Assembly (NCBI GenBank): GCA_002067895.1
Contig: MVRE01000003.1
Location: forward strand, 1 to 64,000
Direction: 5' to 3'
DNA length: 64,000 nucleotides
Origin: Methanoregula sp. PtaU1.Bin051
GTDB lineage: Archaea > Halobacteriota > Methanomicrobia > Methanomicrobiales > Methanospirillaceae
The position numbers and the translations under genes were made by a program. Each line of letters begins with the position of its first letter. The stretch's first letter is position 1. The notes under the pieces were generated by a model. That model searched no databases and had not been told where the DNA came from. It saw only the letters and a program-made list of their open reading frames with translations. This document shows positions 16,458 through 54,403 of this stretch, piece by piece.

Positions 16458-17471
16458 TCATCCCTGTTTGCTCTGAACGCTCACATGCTGAATTGCCGGC
16501 GTTCTTATTACGTGTTCACCTTGTCGGGTTGCTGGACGGATCCGCACCAGCCTCTTGACAGGACCTGGGATAGATCCCTTGACCAGAACATAGGGATTTT
16601 TAATTACCCCGTAATGGAGAAAACCTCCAGAAGGTGTAATCTCTTGCCCATTCTCGCCAATCTTGAGTATTCGCTTGTTGAACTCGGTGCGCTGCTGGTA
16701 CCCTAACTGTCCAATCTGGGGGACTTCCCAGCGGATGTGATGGGGGTTCCATGGGCCAAGTGTGCCAACATGACGTTCCTTGCCACCGCGGGAGTGTTTT
16801 CGCTTGCGCAGCATAACGCCCCAGCGTTTTACGGCACCCTGCGTACCTTTGCCTGTTGTAATCGCTGTAATATCAGCATATGTCCCCATCTGGATTACAC
16901 TGGTAAGTCCGATCTCTTTACCAAGCAACCCGGTAATAAACGCAAACTGCTTGTCAAGAGTCCCGCCTGCGACTTTGATCTCCATCAGGTCCGGGACTTT
17001 CTTTGGTACACCAGAAATCGTTACCGGCTGGGTATACATGAGTGCATACAGCTCGGTGACCTTTCCTGCGGCGATTGCATCGGAAAGCTTCTGTATTGCA
17101 GATTCCGTGTCGGATTTCTTAGGCATCGATATACGGCGGCTGAGAACTCCGTCAAGCTGCCCTGCCCAGACCTCTGTAAGCGCATGCCTGCCATACGTGT
17201 CTTTTGTATATGCACGGACAGCAGCGACTTTCATTGCCGGCACTTCGATAATGGTTACAGGCACCATAATCTCCTTACCTTCAGTCGGACTGTCCTTATG
17301 GTCATCAACCATAATGACATGTGTCATGCCTACTTTGTATCCGGCGAATCCCTGCAGGACCGGCGTTCCGTCATATATCGGCCAGGACTGGTATTTCGGG
17401 ATGGGGCCTTTGGCCCGCTTTCTGGGGCTGAATGCAAGCGATCCCCTGCGTGGCCTGTTTATCTTTGGCAT
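16458..17471 (-). CDS. rpl3: 50S ribosomal protein uL3
   Basis: The first gene of the operon, 337 residues, the full archaeal/eukaryal length. The N-terminus [20 protein letters not shown] and the motifs [37 protein letters not shown] and [20 protein letters not shown] are diagnostic. It has a GGATTGATG ribosome-binding region before the ATG. About 520 nt of non-coding sequence separates it from the nearest good promoter, at 18013-18035. Confidence 0.96.
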
Positions 17472-17660
17472 TTGTTCATCAATCCTTTAATGCGTGTAGG
17501 TTGGTTTGTTTGGTACGAGATTCATTTTCATCCGAGAATTCGTACTTTGTGTACGTTGATTGAAAAGCCAACGTGCGATTCAGATTAATCACTGCGGTTC
17601 GGGAGGGAACGGAGGGATTATTTCATTAATACCGGTTCATTGATCTTTGTCCCGTTTCTT
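17472..17660 (-). other. uL3 leader segment, no gene seen
   Basis: This stretch between the candidate RNA (17661-17992) and uL3 holds no convincing ORF. On the minus strand it contains small inverted repeats: ACGTTG/CAACGT near 17555-17577 and CGTAC/GTACG near 17541-17557. No clear TATA box is seen close to uL3, so the operon is probably transcribed from the upstream promoter through this leader, or from a weak local promoter. Confidence 0.5.
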
Positions 17661-17992
17661 GCAGTGCTGCCGGTCTGACCGGCACTGCGATCTCGCGAAA
17701 GAAGATCCTGATTGTAGTGCGTTCTCATGATACTCTCAGGTATCCTAAGAAATGGGCTCGTCATACAGACGTTCGCCCGTCACTGGCATCAGATCCCACT
17801 CTGTCAGCCCGTTGTGACGAATCACAACTCCTTTCTCGGGTCATTCCCCACTATCGATATAGTTGGGACACACCAATCGGAGATCTCCAGCGGCAGACTT
17901 GGATGATTGTTCTTCCATACAGGTCTACCGCCAACAGGTACTAGGAATCCTGACCAGATTCCCGAACTTGCGAGCAGATCTCCCTATCGGTT
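17661..17992 (-). ncRNA. Candidate structured RNA or operon leader upstream of uL3
   Basis: About 330 nt on the minus strand can form a series of strong helices. P1 pairs 17976-17991 with 17872-17886 (14 bp plus a small bulge) and encloses a GGAATC/GATTCC hairpin (17944-17962) and a 9-bp stem (17923-17931 with 17890-17898). Downstream are hairpins at 17845-17868 (ATCG loop), 17811-17828 (GTTGTGA/TCACAAC with a TTCG tetraloop), 17754-17778 (GGGC/GCCC over CGTC/GACG), 17729-17744 (GATAC/GTATC), 17689-17707 and 17661-17688 (CCGG/CCGG inside GCAGTG/CACTGC). No ORF here has a recognisable protein. The predicted transcription start from the TATA box at 18013-18027 coincides with the first base of P1. 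It lacks SRP RNA and RNase P RNA signature motifs. It may be an independent RNA or the 5' leader of the uL3 operon. Confidence 0.6.
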
Positions 17993-18012
17993 CTTAAATA
18001 TTGCATAAAAAA

Positions 18013-18035
18013 GAATATAAATATATGCTCTCTGA
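18013..18035 (-). promoter_or_regulatory. TATA-box promoter for the candidate RNA / uL3 operon
   Basis: The minus strand carries CATATATTTATATTC (18027-18013) with a purine-rich AGAGAG just upstream, as in an archaeal BRE. A start 25-27 nt downstream would fall at about 17990-17994. The TATA core is nearly symmetric, so weak transcription in the plus direction is also possible, but no plus-strand gene follows. Confidence 0.6.
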
Positions 18036-18100: not shown

Positions 18101-18505
18101 TCAACTGAAATATATCTCTCCTGTATTGGTGATATATACCTCAACGGGTTCACTCAGGCATCGGGCTTTGTAACTCTTGGGTCTCGAACTTCGCAGGTGG
18201 TTGATCAGTGAGATCGTATCATAATTTACTTTAATATTTATTTTTTCAGCTTCTGCGAAGATTATAGTTGGTATTTCAAAGAGATCTGTTCCCGGAGCAA
18301 GCGTACAAAGATGTGTCGAATCAAGGGTATAGAGAAATTCCAAGGTTTCTTTTGCTCTCCGGATATTTTCCATTGCAGATTTTTCAATAGTGCAGACATT
18401 CGCTTTTGAGGTTTCTATAATATCGGCAATCTGCTGTTGGGTAAGACCCTGTTTACGGTACCTCAGCACCTCCCTTTGCCGTTCCGTGAGCAGCCCATCT
18501 TTCAT
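18101..18505 (-). CDS. Tfx-family DNA-binding transcriptional regulator
   Basis: A 134-residue protein with an N-terminal helix-turn-helix: LTERQREVLRYRKQGLTQQQ then IADIIETSKANVCTIEKSA and MENIRRAKETL. This is the layout of Tfx, first described in a methanogen as a regulator of molybdenum formylmethanofuran dehydrogenase genes; the C-terminal domain is shared by the family. The frame stays open to 18574, but I prefer the ATG at 18505, because a TTTAAAT box about 35 bp upstream suggests a short-leader transcript starting there. It is divergent from mtd, so it is a candidate regulator of that gene; this is inference from position. Confidence 0.85.
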   Translation of the reverse strand: MKDGLLTERQREVLRYRKQGLTQQQIADIIETSKANVCTIEKSAMENIRRAKETLEFLYTLDSTHLCTLAPGTDLFEIPTIIFAEAEKINIKVNYDTISLINHLRSSRPKSYKARCLSEPVEVYITNTGEIYFS

Positions 18506-54090: not shown

Positions 54091-54403
54091 TATGGGGACG
54101 CGTCATCGGTCGACAGTACGTGCCTGAATTCACCAGGATATCCGTCCTCCGCCCCGTTACCCCATGGGCGCCGGATGTCTGCGGTAAGTCTGCTCCCTTC
54201 CGGGCCTGAACCGGTCCCCGCAGCAACAGGTCGCCATTCCCTCCGGAATATTGATCCCTGTCCATCGACCTCATGGGACGAGGTTTCAACGTCAGGATGC
54301 CCCGGATCCGGCAGGTCGTTGCGGCCTTCGTCAAACTTCGCCCCCCGCGTACCGACGGTTTCGGGTTGCAGGTGACGCCGAACCACCCGGGCTAGTCCCC
54401 ATA
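54091..54403 (-). ncRNA. ffs: Signal recognition particle RNA (7S RNA)
   Basis: About 313 nt. The 5' end (TATGGGGAC, 54403-54395) is complementary to the 3' end (GTCCCCATA, 54099-54091), closing the RNA as in archaeal SRP RNA. The conserved helix 8 core is present, reading GGCCCGGAAGGGAGCAGAC on the minus strand near 54200, with the GGAA tetraloop and the asymmetric A-rich loop that bind SRP54. The 5' domain contains the GGTTCGGCGTC-like helix 3/4 region. It works with SRP19 and SRP54 in co-translational targeting. The promoter is weak by eye; an AGCTTTTTTGA lies at the right distance. Confidence 0.93.

Follow-up and report, generated by a model that had tools for sequence, protein, structure and literature searches.

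The window, the whole 64,000-nucleotide stretch of DNA analysed here, carries on its minus strand a ribosomal-protein operon whose first gene is uL3 (rpl3). Ahead of this gene, beyond ~190 nt of weakly conserved sequence upstream of its start at 17471, lies a segment of ~330 nt with predicted helices (minus strand, 17661-17992; Table 1). Directly upstream of this leader, a Tfx-type DNA-binding protein is encoded on the minus strand at 18101-18502 (PF14601 TFX_C, E 1.8e-30), and Tfx-like sequence is also found upstream of the leader in several relatives. A sequence-only reading had proposed that the segment forms an undescribed structured RNA, either free or a leader of the uL3 operon, and the helices that it named (a closing helix, a UUCG hairpin at 17811-17828 and a nested helix at 17754-17778) are all found where it placed them. 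The TATA box that it reported at 18013-18027 is likewise present as a TATA-like stretch (TATATTTATATTC, near 18013-18025). In relatives, a T/A-rich TATA stretch occupies the matching position, ahead of a conserved GGAAGCC 5' end. The transcription start of the leader is predicted to lie near 17992.

Table 1. Features of the uL3 leader region in the window.
Feature	Position	Strand	Basis
TATA-box-like promoter element TATATTTATATTC	18013-18027	-	Sequence
5' domain: two hairpin arms enclosed by closing helix P1 (17976-17991 with 17872-17886)	17871-17995	-	Covariation in alignment A3
Variable hairpin linking 5' and 3' domains	17847-17868	-	Single-sequence fold and RNAalifold consensus, 42 relatives
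UUCG-capped hairpin GUUGUGAUUCGUCACAAC	17811-17828	-	Sequence
Extended core element (121-position model R1)	17684-17810	-	R1 match and covariation in alignment A1
Rfam RF03135, L4-Archaeoglobi r-leader	17708-17792	-	cmscan 41.9 bits, gathering score 34.5
GGGC/GCCC stacked over CGUC/GACG	17754-17778	-	Sequence
3' hairpin GCAGUGCCGGUCAGACCGGCAGCACUGC	17661-17688	-	Sequence inspection only
uL3 (rpl3), at the head of the downstream operon for ribosomal proteins	16458-17471	-	PF00297, E 1.5e-85

The RNA structure at 17661-17992 is genuine. The 340-nt strand has a folding energy of -130.3 kcal/mol, whereas its shuffles average -106.7 kcal/mol (z -4.09), and 0 of 100 shuffles equaled it; the comparative support is much stronger. 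In alignment A3 (35 sequences), which covers the 5' domain, 88.2% of cells are paired compared with 79.7% in shuffles, two-sided changes number 109 compared with 45 and occur at 17 of the 34 pairs, and covariation is 0.287 compared with 0.152 in shuffles and at most 0.124 in slid controls. For the 3' domain (alignment A1, 47 mainly frame-free sequences), the corresponding values are 87.3% and 77.6% for pairing, 154 and 51 for two-sided changes, and 0.321 and 0.163 for covariation, with slid controls at or below 0.140. Compensatory changes, for which the sequence-only reading had suggested a check, are thus found in both halves across Methanoregulaceae, and its claim of a structured RNA of ~330 nt on the minus strand stands on both the folding energy and the covariation in the two domains. 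A phylogeny-aware simulation that tested every column pair in the whole leader gave a marginal result (top pairs at E ~1), with the top four pairs all lying within the structure. As this simulation is too weak alone, we relied on counts of pairs set against slid controls. By sequence inspection only, a hairpin comparable to the 3' hairpin, (C)CGGUGCAC(A/G)CCGG, is found in relatives, intact genes included.

The claim that the RNA is undescribed held only in part. An Rfam scan, which had been named in advance as a way to refute novelty, matched the known family RF03135 in the 3' third of the leader (41.9 bits), and this rules out a wholly undescribed RNA. The RF03135 model spans only 85 nt of the leader. 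Its discoverers, Eckert and Weinberg (2020, PMC7247131), placed RF03135 in Archaeoglobi, ahead of rplC-rplD-rplW-rplB, graded it as borderline and named L4 as its ligand by precedent only. Covarying pairs were added to the family in Rfam 15. In the window, the match lies in a non-coding leader with covarying stems, ahead of the uL3/uL4 operon, so that the same genes (rplC, rplD, rplW, rplB) follow the 85-nt core as in Archaeoglobi. The RNA described here differs from the named family in its host, which belongs to Methanomicrobiales rather than Archaeoglobi, and in its size of ~330 nt, with an additional 5' domain and conserved flanks around the core (GGGCUGACA..GG.GGAUCUGA on the 5' side and UCAGGAUCU.UUCGCGAGAC on the 3' side). 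SRP RNA and RNase P RNA, which had already been judged absent from the locus, are ruled out: no RF01857 match occurs there, and RNase P has no match at gathering score and none at the locus with E up to 5. An archaeal SRP RNA (RF01857, 189.5 bits) lies elsewhere in the window, at 54092-54402 on the minus strand.

RF03135 alone was matched in 57 of 108 Methanoregulaceae genomes. The extended element, by comparison, is present essentially throughout the family in the region ahead of uL3, where 88 of the 94 true leaders examined match a sequence profile (most strongly, a few weakly) and the other six, all from genus g15, were recognised through a pattern and sequence inspection. We built the covariance model R1 from alignment A1, leaving members outside the family out of the building, and with it the class yielded the element in 174 of 185 genomes and the phylum sample in 213 of 392. 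The window's own genome has a single copy (89.7 bits, E 3.6e-19), and there is one copy per genome elsewhere with the exception of G099, a fragmented assembly with two copies near contig ends. An RF03135 match on contig C24 of G025 (E 6e-4) is probably spurious, the genuine element of that genome being on C12, and three bacterial matches to the hairpin pattern (L064, L082 and L086) look like chance. The control genome of Methanosarcina acetivorans has neither an RF03135 nor a PF02598 match, so some lineages can do without the element.

All placed copies of the element have uL3 downstream, including 20 of 20 loci fetched from outside the family, in which the distance is 192-458 nt. This linkage bears on whether the RNA might be a free non-coding RNA, for example a small RNA processed from the leader, that lies upstream of uL3 only by chance. 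Its large multi-domain fold, its own promoter and the ~190 nt of weakly conserved sequence before uL3 would suit a free RNA. Against this, uL3 is linked to it in every placed genome, no genome has a second locus, and in other lineages the RNA belongs to the mRNA of the gene that precedes uL3. We therefore regard a free RNA as unlikely; of the two roles that the sequence-only reading had offered, leader of the uL3 operon is the probable one, given the uL3 linkage and the single copy.

At most of the 20 loci from outside the family, the element lies within the open reading frame that precedes uL3. This host gene encodes a SPOUT-type methyltransferase of the PF02598 family (Methyltrn_RNA_3; E 3e-50 to 7e-57), whose relatives in the PDB include MTH1 (1k3r) and human C9orf114, and its frame is open for 254-345 amino acids in 32 loci from other lineages. 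Within the PF02598 genes of relatives, the coding sequence matches RF03135 with 42-75 bits, which includes the highest scores of this model, and the top scores come from lineages with proteins reading GSDGRVRVNCGLQHP. Where the gene is intact in relatives, the counterpart of the RF03135 segment is a homologous stretch of PF02598 codons that spells GSD..WVDVG..SP..VRI, with GGAUCUGA read as GSD, GGGUGGACGU as WVDV and GUCAGGAUC as VRI. Similarly, the segment of the UUCG hairpin encodes VV..HN in intact genes, its coding counterpart being REGVVLKHNGLTD in L194 and REGVVLSHNGMID in L192. In contrast to intact PF02598 genes, the window retains no PF02598 match and the frame is lost. The 3' half of the leader descends from PF02598 coding sequence, the gene itself having been lost; this gene was the ancestral host of the 3' domain. 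Neither this homology nor the RF03135 match had been recognised in the sequence-only reading. The overlap with coding sequence in other lineages, in which the Rfam type 'Cis-reg; leader' is inaccurate for many RF03135 matches, and the methyltransferase itself find no mention in the main text of PMC7247131.

Given a leader that is demonstrably a coding relic, and an Rfam family whose own matches often fall, in many lineages, on coding sequence, the conservation could be leftover coding sequence of a decaying pseudogene and the RNA functionless. The pairing argues against this. The helix GAUCUGA/UCAGGAUC (GGAUCUGA/UCAGGAUC) includes GGAUCUGA, which is also part of the PF02598 reading frame in relatives. 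In the frame-free leaders of genus g13, a paired change has turned CUGA/UCAG into GUGA/UCAC. Two-sided changes such as this one preserve pairing in leaders that have no frame. The covarying stem structure is also present in a set of coding sequences, and intact genes already show more pairing than synonymous codon choice would give. In synonymous-codon shuffles, which preserve each protein and its codon use, 35 coding sequences gave 91.5% paired compared with 66.2% in shuffles (maximum 69.5% of 500); these sequences had been found with R1 and so are biased toward structure. When 46 genes were instead picked by PF02598 alone, the closing helix was 82.3% paired compared with 61.2% (maximum 68.0% of 2000). 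The third base of a Ser/Pro codon pairs with the first base of an Arg codon in 44 of 44 of these genes, when 28% would be expected, and several codons are nearly frozen (TCG in 45/46, AGG in 41/46, CCT in 30/30 and TCT in 14/14). Synonymous conservation is highest at codons 121-180, with most of the gene near background, and some outer helix pairs are not above expectation (G3-I2, p 0.46). The fold is thus kept beyond the protein's requirement while the gene is intact. Together with the covariation in frame-free sequences and the presence of the element in 174 of 185 genomes despite probably repeated gene loss, these shuffle tests make an ordinary pseudogene very improbable. In family f9 (L184, L185 and L246-L285), the closing helix reads CCTGAC/GTCAGG, with Pro replacing Ser, so that the codons differ and the pairing is kept; in this family pairing is often kept where R1 found nothing.

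Of the 185 genomes of the class, only three (G112, G188 and G189) retain an intact PF02598 gene. The window's genome (G000) has no PF02598 match and a broken homologous frame, and the homologous frame is broken in the other class genomes as well. Searches with intact proteins returned decayed matches with stops and frame changes in the relics (for example L196, E 2e-5; L208, E 4e-4). Two loci, L208 and L209 (in G190 and G191), retain partial protein homology with stops; they look like cases of recent PF02598 decay and like intermediates between gene and leader. Intact genes and relic leaders are alike in promoter and 5' end, with a TATA stretch and then TTTAGGAAACCGTTATGGGGTTATC, and a T/A-rich TATA stretch also precedes the intact methyltransferase gene at L206/L207. 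On a uL3 tree, the genomes with intact PF02598 fall in two families, among gene-lacking relatives. A single clade of all gene-lacking genomes is rejected on this tree (p 5e-5), which makes several losses probable, and several independent losses of PF02598 are the most likely history; a single loss followed by regain in two lineages is the less likely alternative.

The element lies inside the PF02598 gene in most lineages, as would be expected if the RNA controlled the methyltransferase itself by autoregulation rather than the ribosomal-protein operon. The element is nevertheless retained in Methanomicrobiales that have no PF02598 gene at all, and such autoregulation is accordingly highly improbable. 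Since the RNA persists without the PF02598 enzyme, it does not need this enzyme as a partner in this class. Its survival beyond the enzyme and its constant position close ahead of uL3 make action in cis on the ribosomal-protein operon the most likely role.

We favor with good confidence the reading that the leader is a cis-regulator of the uL3-uL4 operon that was once dual-coding and is now non-coding after the death of the gene. The leader would be the 5' leader of the uL3-uL4-uL23-uL2 operon, comprising two structured domains that begin ~25 nt past the TATA box, and its 3' domain extends RF03135. Across most of the phylum, the RNA is embedded in the PF02598 frame ahead of uL3, with pairing and protein both under selection; in Methanomicrobiales, the protein frame has been lost, probably several times, but promoter, 5' end and RNA element have all been retained. 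An operon product would then bind the fold and lower downstream expression. The structure, the homology, the selection on pairing, the loss of the frame and the linkage to uL3 are established by the data, and the transcription start, the ligand and the direction of regulation are predictions. The bacterial S10-operon L4 leader precedes an operon encoding L3 and L4 and is controlled by an operon product. Both this leader and the one in the window lead an operon with L3 and L4, a likeness of genomic position alone, and by bacterial precedent the ligand may be uL4, acting as a repressor of the operon. A point against action in the lineages with an intact gene is that ribosomes would open a structure within a translated frame. 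Mimicry of 23S rRNA as a ribosomal-protein binding site was rejected: local alignment of the leader to 23S rRNA was no better than shuffles and the best model match scored only 7.1 bits, the comparison having used the 23S rRNA of G033 because the window's own assembly lacks one.

For RF03135 as a family, we likewise think it likely, if with slightly more reserve, that it is a dual-function element, a ribosomal-operon cis-regulator lying, across the phylum, within the upstream methyltransferase gene, which has outlived the repeated death of that gene to become a conventional non-coding leader in Methanomicrobiales. Ribosomal-protein leaders are normally regarded as non-coding. Here, one RNA fold can be traced from a protein gene that still works to a leader without a frame, and the presence of both states in close relatives provides a natural experiment that separates RNA selection from protein selection and shows how a regulatory RNA can arise from a dying gene. 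The overlap also explains why RF03135 matches fall in coding sequence, and the borderline L4-Archaeoglobi prediction is now much firmer.

The distal leader between uL3 and the structured domains (17471-17660, minus strand) contains a short TCTCGGA-like motif, which recurs in many relatives ~100-150 nt ahead of the uL3 start, and may include a further small element.
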